Assembly: GCA_018401385.1 (NCBI GenBank)
Contig: JAGYKZ010000018.1
Coordinates: forward strand, 1-32,446
From: Roseicyclus sp.
GTDB taxonomy: Bacteria; Pseudomonadota; Alphaproteobacteria; Rhodobacterales; Rhodobacteraceae
Direction of reading: 5' to 3'
Length of the DNA: 32,446 bases
Position 1 is the first letter of the stretch, and each line of letters begins with the position of its first letter. The notes under the pieces were generated by a model that saw only the letters and a list, made by a program, of their open reading frames with translations, was not told the origin of the DNA and made no database searches. The translations under genes and the position numbers were made by a program. Of the stretch, positions 223 through 3,960 are shown one piece after another.

Positions 223-1482
223 TCAATCCAAGGTGCGGATGATCGCATCTGCCCGCAGTTCTTCGAAATAGCCCGAGGCGTAGCTTTCCAACCGTTGCGA
301 GAACAGGGCTTGACGCACCTCCTCGCGCGCGCCCTCCTCCAGCTCGACCGTGCGGTTGCACAGCCACACCATCAGCACATCTTGCCCGTCATTGCGGCGC
401 AACGTGCTGGCGCTTTCATTTGGGTCGAGGCGCGACAGAACGGCGGCAATGTCAGCGGGCACTTGGCCGCTTGGCACGCTGACCCGCTCGAACTGGCCCG
501 GGATGGTGCCATAAAGATCATCGCAGCGGTCGTTTTGCGCCGCAATCTGTACCGCACGCTCTGCTGCATCTGCGCCTGTCAGCAGCACGGTTGCATAATC
601 ATAGGCACTGGCGCTTGGATAGCGATAGGGGGCCTCTTCAAACCCCAAGACCTGAAACAGACCGATCCCAGGCCCCAAAGGCACAGGTTCGGTCACATCG
701 CCAATATCAAGCGTCACCAAAATCGCGGCCAATCCCTGCGGCAGGGTGGAAAGCGGCCGCCAGTCCAACGCACCGCCATCCACAGCCGTAGGTGCGGCGG
801 AGCGGGTGCGCGCGGCCTCGGCAAAGGCGGCGGTGCTGCCATCGACCTGCTCGGCAATGCCCAACAATTCGGCGCGCAACTCCTCGACATTATTGCCCTC
901 AATCGGCAGGATCAATTCGGCCAAGCGGATTTGCGCACCATCTCCGCTGGAGCCAAGGGCCAAGGCACGGTCAATCTCCGCTTCGCTGATCTGGGCGCGT
1001 GCGCCAAACCGTGCGCGCAGCGTTTCGCGCCACAAAACGCCTGCGCTGATGAAATCGCGCAAAGTCTCATAGGCGATGCCCTCTTCCGCCAAACCATCAA
1101 TCAAGCCCTGCCCATCCAAATTGGCGCGCGCGGCAAATTCTTCGATACCCGCGAAAATTTGATCTTGCGTGATTGTGATGCCAGCCGCAGAAGCGGCCTC
1201 GATTTGCAGCCGCTCCTCGATCAAACTGTCACGCGCGCGGGCTTGCAGATCACCTGGTGCATTGAGGATGCTCAGGAATGCGGCACGCTGGTCGATTTCG
1301 AACTGGGTGATGACCCGATCATTGACAGACACAACCGGCGTGAAATCCAGCGTTTGCGCGGCCATATTCAACGGCAGAATAATCAGGGCACAGCCCAAGG
1401 ATGCGGCCAACAATGCCTTGCGCGCGGCGATGATGCCTAACAGTCGGCCAAGGATCTCGGGGGATGGGCGATCTGAATTCAT
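223..1482 (-). CDS. surA: SurA-type periplasmic chaperone / peptidyl-prolyl isomerase
   Basis: The 419-residue protein has an N-terminal hydrophobic export segment at about residues 26-42 ending near MAAQ, then a SurA N-terminal chaperone domain beginning with VVSVNDRVITQFEIDQR, the usual family opening. A divergent parvulin-like (rotamase) domain follows at about residues 178-285. It should act in the periplasm, escorting outer-membrane proteins to the BAM complex. The start at 1482 is supported by AAGGA five bases upstream. The gene sits between lptG and pdxA, but the expected lptD directly upstream is missing, leaving a 117-base gap. The PPIase half is weakly conserved, as is common in alphaproteobacterial SurA, so isomerase activity cannot be asserted. 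Confidence 0.9.
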   Translation of the reverse strand: MNSDRPSPEILGRLLGIIAARKALLAASLGCALIILPLNMAAQTLDFTPVVSVNDRVITQFEIDQRAAFLSILNAPGDLQARARDSLIEERLQIEAASAAGITITQDQIFAGIEEFAARANLDGQGLIDGLAEEGIAYETLRDFISAGVLWRETLRARFGARAQISEAEIDRALALGSSGDGAQIRLAELILPIEGNNVEELRAELLGIAEQVDGSTAAFAEAARTRSAAPTAVDGGALDWRPLSTLPQGLAAILVTLDIGDVTEPVPLGPGIGLFQVLGFEEAPYRYPSASAYDYATVLLTGADAAERAVQIAAQNDRCDDLYGTIPGQFERVSVPSGQVPADIAAVLSRLDPNESASTLRRNDGQDVLMVWLCNRTVELEEGAREEVRQALFSQRLESYASGYFEELRADAIIRTLD

Positions 1483-1599
1483 CTTATCCTTCTTCGGTTT
1501 GTTGCGCTGTCTTTGCGCGCCATGCCTGTTCCTGCGTCAAGCCTACAAGAGGTGGGCCAGAGTGGCGAGGGGAAATTCATCCGCCATACTCAAACGGGC

Positions 1600-2694
1600 C
1601 TAGCCATCTTCCATATGTAAAATCACACCAAGAGCCAGAAGTGACCCTGCCAGTGGCGGTGTCCACGCCACGAGATAGGCGGAGAGCTGACCGTTTTCGC
1701 CCAAAACCTGCGCAAAACTGCGCAGAAAATACAGGCCAAAGCCCATCAAAATTGCGCTCAAAACCAAGGGACCTGTGCGGCCAAAGCGGGTGTGGCGCAT
1801 GGTCAGGCTTGCGCCGATCAAAACCATCGTCATCAGCATCAGCGGATTGGCCAATTGCATCTGGAACCACACCCGATGTGACAGACCCGCAAAACCCGCT
1901 TCGGCCAATTGATCAATGAAAGCGGGCAGGGCGTAAATCGACACGTTGCTAGGGTCCCCAAAGGAATCAAGGATTTGCTCGCGGGTCAAGGTCGAGGCCA
2001 CGCTATATTGCGCGAAACTGCGCGCGCTGGCTTCGGGGTTTATCACCGTCAGGTCCCAGATTTTCGCCGCGCTCATTTGCCATTCTTGCGCCACAAGCCG
2101 CGCCGTGTCCGCATCGATGCGTTCCTCAATGCGCCCGTCAGGGTCAAAATTGAAAAAGGTGACATCAAAAAGCTCGGTTCCATCACTGTTGGCGCGCATG
2201 GCATTGATCACGGTCTGTTTTGCGCGCGTGCCTTGGCGCAGCCACAGCCCCTCTTGGGTGATGGCAAGGGTGCGTTCTTGCGCGCCGCGCACCTGTGCCA
2301 GTTTACGCTCATGGGCAACCTGCGTATCCGCCACGATGGGGTTGAGCACCAAGATGCCGAAAACACCAATCAGGGCCGCCACGCTGATGGGGGCCATCGT
2401 GGCCCGAAGCGCAGAGCGGCCCGATGCGCGCACCACCACCAATTCGGAGCTGCGCGCCAGTGACAGGAAAAACACCAAGGTCGCCAGCATGACCACCAGC
2501 GGAAACAGGGAATAAAGCGCTGAGGGCATATTGAGCAGCGCAAGCGTCAGCGCGTCACCCAGATCCCCATTATTGAGCGCAATCCGCCGCATCTGCTCGG
2601 TCAGATCCACCACCAGATGGATCACGGCGAATATGGCCAACACCGTAAGGAAATTTTTGAAATAGCGCTGCGCGAGGTAAAGTTGCAGGATCAT
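1600..2694 (-). CDS. lptG: LPS export ABC transporter permease LptG
   Basis: A 364-residue YjgP/YjgQ-family inner-membrane protein. It has hydrophobic helices near the N-terminus (about residues 10-30, 55-80 and 95-118), a central periplasmic beta-jellyroll region (about 130-260), and three C-terminal helices, which is the standard LptF/LptG plan. With LptF and the ATPase LptB it extracts lipopolysaccharide from the inner membrane and passes it to LptC/LptA. Its ATG overlaps the lptF stop by four bases (ATGA), indicating translational coupling. The second position in the pair and the neighbour order make LptG the better name, although the two paralogues are similar. The reading frame is clean, unlike several genes elsewhere in the window. 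Confidence 0.92.
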   Translation of the reverse strand: MILQLYLAQRYFKNFLTVLAIFAVIHLVVDLTEQMRRIALNNGDLGDALTLALLNMPSALYSLFPLVVMLATLVFFLSLARSSELVVVRASGRSALRATMAPISVAALIGVFGILVLNPIVADTQVAHERKLAQVRGAQERTLAITQEGLWLRQGTRAKQTVINAMRANSDGTELFDVTFFNFDPDGRIEERIDADTARLVAQEWQMSAAKIWDLTVINPEASARSFAQYSVASTLTREQILDSFGDPSNVSIYALPAFIDQLAEAGFAGLSHRVWFQMQLANPLMLMTMVLIGASLTMRHTRFGRTGPLVLSAILMGFGLYFLRSFAQVLGENGQLSAYLVAWTPPLAGSLLALGVILHMEDG

Positions 2695-3854
2695 GCGCTG
2701 CCCTCCAACAGATCAGGGCGCCGCATGGGGCGTAAATGCGCGGTTTTATATACCGCCAGCAACACCGTCCCAAAAACCGCCGCGCATAGCAGCGGTTGCA
2801 CATAGGCCAAAGGCGCCAAATGCGGCGCGTTGATGACCTGAGCGCTCAACAGGTTTTTGCTCATTTGCAGTGGGATCACCAACCCCACGGCAAGCAGGAT
2901 CTGCGCCCATAATCCAAGCCGCGAAAAATTGCGCAGCATCAGGCAACTGGCCGCGATCAGCGGCACGAAAAACGCAAACAAGGCTTGGGAAAAGCGGTAA
3001 TGCAATTCCCATTTGATCCGATCAAGGGGGATCCCCGCGCGATTGGCCAAATCCGCATCCGCATCCATCAGCGCGGGCGTGGGCATGGCCCGTTCATTGT
3101 CGGGCAATGTTTCGCCCGTATCATCCCCCGCGCCATCCGTGGCGCTGCGGGCTTGCGTGATGTCATAATTGAGCCGCTCGAAGGTGAGGTTGCTCAGGCG
3201 ATTGGTGGCGCGCTCCAGTGTCAATGTGCGCCCAGAAACCAAGATCATGCGTGCATTTACATCATCGCGCAGCAAATAGCCGCGATCCGCCCGATGCGTA
3301 ATGTCGCGCGCCCCATCACGGCGATCTTGGATGAAAATCCCGCGCAATTCACCCTCGGGCGAAATCTCGCCAATATAGACAGTCACGCCTGCAATCGGGG
3401 ATTGAAACACGCCAGAGCGCAGCAATTGCGCGACCATGTCATTGCCCAATATCGCGGTTCTTTCGCGGAATTCGGCATTGGCGCGCGGGGCCAACACATG
3501 GGCCAAACCCGCGATCAAAAGCGCCAAAACGATGCCGAAATAGAAAATCGGACGCAGCAGGCGCAAGGGTGAGATACCCGCCGTTTGGAAAATTACAAAT
3601 TCGCTATCCGTGATCAGGCGGTTGAAGACGTAAAGCGTGGCCACAAACCCCGCCACGGGCAACACCAGCATGATAATCGGCGGCAGGGCGAGGGTTGTCA
3701 GCTCCAAAAACACAAGGATGGTCTGCCCATCTGAAATAAGCTGATCGAACAGGTCAACGCCGCGATTGATCCAATAGACAGACACCAGAACAAGCGCAAA
3801 GAAACCAAAAAAGCTGAGACACATCAGCAGGATATATCGATCATATCGTGTCAC
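2691..3854 (-). CDS. lptF: LPS export ABC transporter permease LptF
   Basis: A YjgP/YjgQ-family permease of about 387 residues, first gene of the leftward envelope operon. The conserved opening is TRYDRYILLMCLSFFGFFAL followed by VYWINRGVDLFDQL, then paired helices, a long periplasmic domain and three C-terminal helices. I chose the GTG at 3854 because family members begin at this (M)xRYDRY motif and because AAGG lies about seven bases upstream. In-frame ATGs at 3893 and 4016 would add 13 or 54 residues. They lack a good Shine-Dalgarno, and the longest version would run into the divergent pepA promoter. It partners with LptG in the LptB2FG complex. Start choice is the main uncertainty. Confidence 0.9.
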   Translation of the reverse strand: MTRYDRYILLMCLSFFGFFALVLVSVYWINRGVDLFDQLISDGQTILVFLELTTLALPPIIMLVLPVAGFVATLYVFNRLITDSEFVIFQTAGISPLRLLRPIFYFGIVLALLIAGLAHVLAPRANAEFRERTAILGNDMVAQLLRSGVFQSPIAGVTVYIGEISPEGELRGIFIQDRRDGARDITHRADRGYLLRDDVNARMILVSGRTLTLERATNRLSNLTFERLNYDITQARSATDGAGDDTGETLPDNERAMPTPALMDADADLANRAGIPLDRIKWELHYRFSQALFAFFVPLIAASCLMLRNFSRLGLWAQILLAVGLVIPLQMSKNLLSAQVINAPHLAPLAYVQPLLCAAVFGTVLLAVYKTAHLRPMRRPDLLEGSA

Positions 3855-3960
3855 ACGCAGCTGCCTTGTCTTGCGGCCCCAGAAACGGGCCATATTGGGT
3901 GTTTTTATGGTGTATCGGAAGGCTTGGCGCAAGGACAGTGCGATCTGCCGCTGCCGCATC

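Follow-up and report, generated by a model that had tools for sequence, protein, structure and literature searches.

The window analysed here, the whole 32,446-nucleotide stretch of Roseicyclus sp. DNA taken from contig C90 of a draft genome (G000; 2.1 Mb, 197 contigs, 69% complete), carries surA, lptG and lptF with no lptD between lptG and surA. We conclude that the native lptD was very probably deleted after a diverged, horizontally transferable LptD, hereafter the variant, had taken over its function. "Displaced by the variant" is more exact than "moved", because the variant is strongly diverged and comes from a separate LptD clade. The initial annotation had offered a moved lptD as one option, and it was right that the only LptD found in the genome lies elsewhere, but the divergence and separate ancestry of that gene fit displacement better. 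In most Gram-negative bacteria LptD is essential, its gene usually keeps its place in a conserved operon, and the protein is a target for antibiotics. Here lptD resembles an accessory surface-antigen gene: it occurs on a plasmid, is tied to O-antigen genes and is exchanged between species, and the native copy has been lost in three lineages.

The features of the window that bear on this are the following.
223..1482, minus strand: surA, periplasmic chaperone, intact (SurA_N 4.4e-8 and Rotamase 8.9e-10)
1483..1599, no strand: 117-bp spacer, the empty native lptD site; relatives carry lptD here, and no LptD remnant was found by profile search
1600..2694, minus strand: lptG, LPS export permease, intact (PF03739 7e-65)
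2691..3959, minus strand: lptF, LPS export permease, intact (PF03739 3.4e-56; start codon chosen by the analyst)

The initial annotation had reported that lptD is missing from a 117-base gap between lptG and surA and that LptF and LptG are intact. The gap is indeed exactly 1483–1599, and both permeases are complete PF03739 proteins. Its statement that the gap holds frames of at most 14 codons needs correcting, as longer mechanical frames are present, such as one of 33 aa at 1479–1580 on the minus strand, with nothing to suggest that they are genes. The profile that found no remnant in 1483–1599 was built from Rhodobacteraceae LptDs, and neither a consensus promoter nor a consensus terminator was found in the same interval. 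By eye, TTCCCCTCGC-like and CTCTTGTAGG-like words in the spacer look alike across four species and are perhaps part of a surA promoter or leader.

To place this junction we compared relatives, one genome per species. LptD lies behind lptG in 11 of the 15 lptG regions fetched, two of them with partial genes (G022 is cut by a contig end, and G033 has an N-terminal piece), and the four regions that lack it come from the window's genus (G001, G002 and G003) and from G014. A second set of 16 genomes with an lptG locus has LptD there in 12; it is missing in G395, G203 and G191, and in G351 the contig ends at that point. The usual gene order, with lptD between lptG and surA, is therefore as the initial annotation had described it. 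Two of these loci are unusual in other ways. The G033 piece belongs to a 1106-aa frame (L060:1443-4763) whose LptD similarity ends after about 343 profile positions, and which is either a chimera, a frameshift or an altered barrel, while the G191 region (L177) has a run of N inside lptG with surA directly after, in a genome without a convincing LptD.

The junction without lptD is common to all four genomes analysed from the window's genus, G000 to G003, so the gap is neither chance nor an assembly fault. The window's LptG is 96% identical to that of G003 and 88% identical to those of G002 and G001. That lptD was dropped from the contig during assembly might be suspected in a 69% complete draft of 197 contigs, but the identical junction occurs in G001, G002 and G003, each 99% complete, with G002 a single contig of 2,663,031 bases. 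We regard an assembly error as vanishingly improbable, and the suggestion that about 2 kb had been lost from the sequence fails on the same evidence. Searched against plasmids, the surA-lptF DNA of the window matched once, over a short stretch.

The rest of the LPS pathway is in place. LpxC was found in all four genomes of the genus (in two pieces in G000), a PF03739 search returned exactly two LptF/LptG genes in each, and LptA was found in G001–G003, with LptC and LptB adjoining lptA in G002; LptA was not found in G000, whose assembly is incomplete. Because LpxC, LptF/LptG and one LptD are present throughout and LptA in the three near-complete genomes, LPS export has evidently been kept, although the translocon may work in a different way; altered LPS export was one of the options in the initial annotation. 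Loss of LPS was rejected in view of LpxC and the other Lpt parts. Elsewhere, G048, G055 and G058 have a detectable LptD and no detectable LpxC (G048 is a single-contig genome rated 100% complete); either LptD persists there although the LpxC step is absent, or their LpxC has diverged very far.

Pfam does not see the LptD of the window's genus. PF04453 detects LptD in 51 of 61 genomes, comprising 51 of 57 outside the genus and none of the four within it. By contrast, a profile made from 15 native Rhodobacteraceae LptDs (A1), run on G000–G003 down to E 10, found one diverged LptD locus in each, away from lptG (E 1.9e-100 to 4.0e-117), and also matched C-terminal pieces in the three complete variant genes of the genus. 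The search of the rest of the genome that had been proposed as a check thus ended at a single locus, on contig C11 of G000 (3.8 kb), where the gene runs off the contig end. A hidden native lptD was considered and rejected, as A1, run on G000–G003, finds no locus other than that of the variant; a further profile, A2, was run on G000 and G003 only. The best NCBIfam LptD model matched 5 of 5 variants scanned at 3.9e-10 to 1.1e-15, far below its full-length cut-off, and the native LptD of G006 likewise falls far below that cut-off. The G002 variant protein matched no Pfam family at E <= 0.001. We read the Pfam miss as probably reflecting the limited reach of the models; in practice, Pfam scores such genomes as lacking lptD although the gene is present.

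A PDB sequence search with the variant profile returned nothing at E <= 1, and fold search alone gave matches. For a model of the G002 variant, of middling quality (pTM 0.59), Foldseek ranks 1–38 were all LptD, LptDE or LptD-assembly entries (best E 1.4e-30; alignments of at least 800 columns for ranks 1–15; TM-scores of about 0.4–0.5 for full-length entries); these include 4q35 and 4n4r, whose titles do not name LptD and which we take to be LptD entries. With VIA, rows 1–28 were LptD, LptDE or LptD-assembly, the best at Z 20.1 with an rmsd of 10.1 over 468 residues, and unrelated barrels began at Z 14.0. The modelled fold is an LptA-like jelly-roll followed by a large barrel. In an alignment of 80 LptDs (13 of 93 collected rows were dropped as duplicates or partial, the cut G000 copy included), the first CxxC cysteine is present in 80, the second in 77 and the NEC cysteine in 79. 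All six complete variants have the NEC cysteine, and all six also have a cysteine near the C-terminus. By profile and predicted fold, then, the variant is an LptD homologue, and we infer that it inserts LPS, since no other LptD was found alongside LPS-export genes that are otherwise normal.

The variant appears to have a longer barrel. The stretch between two C-terminal alignment anchors measures 96–97 residues in all six complete variants, against 39–50 residues in 71 of the 74 other LptDs; the remaining three (L132, L133 and L134, all Methylocystaceae) have 82 and are perhaps an independent barrel enlargement. Counting long barrel strands by hand from strand lists, with short strands left out, gave 28 for the variant model (pTM 0.59) and 24 for a native model (pTM 0.65) by the same method, and the four extra strands fall in the extra stretch of about 58 residues in these models. 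According to excerpts of PMC4353691, the LptDs of Salmonella and Shigella have a 26-stranded barrel, and core plus O-antigen is held to pass through it. The modelling suggests a barrel of 30 strands for the variant.

In the window's genus, the variant lptD sits among glycan genes. G002 encodes, in this order on one strand, a GT4 glycosyltransferase, a Wzy_C protein of the O-antigen ligase family, LptD and an RfaH/NusG-like protein, with divergent genes for GT11, GT25 and Polysacc_synt_2; the order in G003 is the same, and all the G002 cluster genes have counterparts in both G001 and G003. G001 has an additional 277-aa frame between Wzy_C and LptD, the start of which looks like a sugar-nucleotide transferase. 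Contig C11 of G000 holds the end of GT4, Wzy_C and LptD, and then stops. The variant gene is thus downstream of the Wzy_C gene and, in the three of four genomes where the sequence continues, just upstream of the RfaH-like gene, whose product scores 123.8 against a curated cut-off of 144.5. A search for E. coli-type ops sites for RfaH gave two loose matches only, to which we give no weight. Judged by its gene content, with ligase/polymerase, glycosyltransferases and sugar-modifying genes together, the locus is classed as an O-antigen-type gene cluster.

Two other origins for this locus were rejected. It is not an LptF/LptG/LptD cassette at a new place, since the upstream genes are Wzy_C and a glycosyltransferase and each genome has exactly two LptF/LptG genes. 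A search for a phage origin gave three weak matches only and no PHROG family. An LptD-like match also lies in a 7.8-kb record titled Bacteriophage sp. (MT837069.1:5451-6356; 33%, 1e-42); this is more likely to be bacterial DNA than a phage gene.

Within the genus, lptD has been exchanged between species together with the neighbouring glycan genes. G001 and G002 are sisters by LptG, SurA and LptF (97.3, 93.4 and 89.6% identical), and remain similar in LptA (92.9%), LptB (95.7%) and the genes beside the cluster (DctM 95.4%, TAXI 93.1%, RfaH 89.4%). Inside the block, identity between the two falls to 60.5% for LptD, 49.2% for Wzy, 37.8% for GT4, 64.1% for GT11, 67.4% for GT25 and 61.2% for Polysacc_synt_2. 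The same proteins are 80.5, 78.2, 85.6, 94.0, 82.8 and 91.4% identical between G002 and G003, which outside the block are further apart than G001 and G002 (LptG 88.0%, SurA 73.6%). No such conflict is seen between G000 and G003 (LptD 92.6%, Wzy 84.8%, LptG 95.7%). AU tests, with groups chosen once the first tree and the identities were known, reject a clade of G001+G002 for LptD (p 0.0004) and one of G000+G002+G003 for LptF-LptG-SurA (p 0.0019). The drop in identity falls between rfaH and lptD, and lptD therefore lies inside the exchanged block.

What this linkage means can be read in several ways. The longer barrel may be suited to the polysaccharide that the linked genes produce, in which case the translocon would travel with it as a matched set; this is among the more speculative of our proposals, and we hold it with somewhat less than even confidence. 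At least as probable, though also short of even, is that the O-antigen linkage has no functional meaning and that lptD merely sits in a recombination hot spot, exchanged by position only. RfaH, encoded on the opposite flank of lptD, stayed out of the exchange (89.4% identity), and one variant, that of G395, is not among glycan genes, as such hitch-hiking would allow. Against it, the linkage to glycan genes recurs in the window's genus, in G203 and on a Marivivens plasmid, there with LptC and Kdo transferase nearby, and the extra stretch is common to all six complete variants. A further, rather unlikely, explanation is escape at the cell surface, in which phages that use exposed LptD loops and O-antigen as receptors favour joint variation of the two. 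Solved structures show phage proteins bound to Shigella LptD (by PDB entry titles), and the exchanged block alters both LptD and glycan genes.

The variant also occurs beyond the genus. When a variant profile was searched against 394 genomes of the family (a draw from which G001 and G002 were absent, with at most two candidates per genome scored), G003 and G000 came top, followed by G144, G203 and G395 (6e-251 to 6e-172). The next match, at 1.2e-105, was a native gene behind lptG in G171. Spread outside the family was looked for and rejected: among 385 genomes of the class, only G000 itself matched at E <= 1e-100. Eleven of the 394 family genomes, some of them rated 94–99% complete, gave no match to the variant profile (G256, G379 and G163 among them). 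The native profile found no convincing intact LptD in these same 11, only a scar in G014 and weak N-terminal matches in G191 and G331, and an LptG search in nine of them had no match in seven.

A search of 72,556 plasmid records gave 27 matches, one of them of the variant type, on a 169-kb plasmid of Marivivens sp. JLT3646 (NZ_CP018573.1); its LptD is 44% identical over 96% of the query. The surrounding module contains a Kdo transferase, kdsB, an O-antigen ligase, LptC, a MraY/WecA-type glycosyltransferase, LptD, RfaH, mannose genes and a polysaccharide-type ABC transporter pair. In G203, the variant lies beside a Wzy_C-like gene (22.3, below the Pfam cut-off of 31.7), with glycan genes on the same side; the opposite flank carries genes for acetate kinase and sulfotransferase. 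In G395, its neighbours are cytochrome c maturation genes, and lptG is about 65 kb away. The G144 copy (L195:306-2648) is on a contig with the Marivivens plasmid backbone and is interrupted by two in-frame TGA codons; it adjoins fructose-bisphosphatase, without the Kdo, ligase and LptC genes that separate the two on the Marivivens plasmid. This genome also has an intact native lptD behind lptG, and all seven genomes of the G144 genus have a native-type LptD, with the variant as an addition in G144 only.

Within the Rhodobacteraceae, the eight variant LptDs group together as a single clade (SH-aLRT 100) with a long stem (0.99). They are not native-type, lying away from lptG-surA and outside the native clades. 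Their nearest relatives are the native LptDs of G111, G171, G194, G270 and G235 (SH-aLRT 86), and the G395 variant branches outside all the others on a long branch. Of the seven variant-bearing genomes, six have no second LptD (the G000 copy is cut by the contig end, and G203 has a stump besides); in the seventh, G144, the native gene is intact and the variant broken. Native lptD is thus gone in three variant-carrying lineages: the window's genus; G395, where the interval from lptG to surA holds no lptD; and G203, where a decayed native stump covers profile positions 602–696 (E 1.5e-21) and contains stops. In G014, a native C-terminal stump of about 33 codons remains behind lptG (G014:C13:16553-16663, L058; E 8.2e-7). 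No variant LptD was found in its assembly, which is 98% complete, though LpxC, LptA, LptF and LptG are present, and both an assembly gap and a still more diverged LptD are possible. On a tree of LptF and LptG from 28 genomes (G203 represented by LptG only, and two genomes left out of the count), the empty native site takes three changes (3–3 in bootstraps), which we read as three probable losses: in the window's genus, in G395 with G014, and in G203.

A simple relocation would have moved native lptD into the glycan cluster in the ancestor of the genus, where it evolved fast, with the Marivivens and G203 copies transferred later from the genus. A within-genus move of this kind keeps some room because the variants are closest to native LptDs from relatives of the genus, and LptF and LptG likewise place G111, G171 and G194 close to it. 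However, the LptF and LptG tree separates G395 and G014 from the window's genus and joins them to G111, G171 and G194, and yet among the variant LptDs that of G395 is the outermost. The native site was emptied in separate lineages, and G203 and G144 hold native and variant side by side as distinct genes. Overall, we consider relocation unlikely.

The history that we favour is displacement. A mobile LPS/O-antigen module would bring in a second LptD, and with two translocons present either could become dispensable; the variant broke in G144, and the native gene was lost in three other lineages. Displacement would thus have passed through a two-gene stage, which we infer; G144 holds both genes, but with the variant broken. 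Once the native gene was gone, the essential translocon would be tied to its new surroundings, the glycan cluster in the window's genus, and recombination of that cluster between species would then exchange lptD together with the neighbouring glycosyltransferases. Three observations do not fit this account so readily: the G395 variant is beside cytochrome c maturation genes rather than glycan genes, G014 lost native lptD with no variant in its assembly, and the copy that broke in G144 was the variant, with the native gene intact.

One could also suppose that the variant exports another lipid-linked glycan and that LPS reaches the surface without LptD. The strong divergence and longer barrel would agree with this, as would G014, which apparently has no LptD at all and yet keeps LpxC. 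However, no LptD other than the variant was found in genomes that encode LpxC, LptA, LptF and LptG. Six of the seven variant genomes lack native lptD or retain it only in decayed form, and in the seventh it is the variant that is broken. We think this highly improbable.

Going beyond displacement, LptD may have joined an O-antigen "serotype cassette": a mobile module would deliver polysaccharide genes, a regulator and a translocon that match one another (with LptC and Kdo transferase added on the plasmid), and the translocon's barrel would have grown from 26 to about 30 strands so that this polysaccharide can get through. The housekeeping lptD would repeatedly have become dispensable through modules of this kind. 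We offer this as a tentative proposal, rather more doubtful than not. If it is true, an essential envelope gene was lost and then swapped along with surface antigens. The system makes it testable whether the translocon must match the polysaccharide and whether barrel size limits what passes.

Known systems share parts of this arrangement. O-antigen loci are exchangeable between relatives, and polysaccharide plasmids of roseobacters ("rhamnose operon", "biofilm") are known; as in the window's genus and on the Marivivens plasmid, a glycan cluster is exchanged among relatives or carried by a plasmid. We know of no such locus or plasmid that carries the outer-membrane LPS translocon itself, and a literature search of incomplete coverage found no description of LptD in O-antigen clusters or of LptD displacement. 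The Marivivens module shares with the window's genus the LptD clade and a nearby O-antigen ligase and RfaH; it differs in being plasmid-borne and in including Kdo transferase, KdsB and LptC. GfcD, the proposed exporter of lipid-anchored group 4 capsule polysaccharide, resembles the variant as an outer-membrane barrel encoded with the genes of its polysaccharide, and excerpts of the source propose a lateral gate for it (PMC11494523). GfcD differs in having two barrels, of 12 and 13 strands, and those excerpts liken it to LptD only by analogy (PMC11494523). With canonical LptD of Rhodobacteraceae and E. coli, the variant shares the jelly-roll and barrel fold of the model, the CxxC pair and the NEC cysteine, at 27–30% identity to eight full-length native Rhodobacteraceae LptDs. 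Unlike canonical LptD, it is missed by PF04453, has about 58 extra residues before the NEC motif and is not encoded at lptG-surA; in the window's genus its gene belongs to a glycan cluster and is exchanged with it between species.
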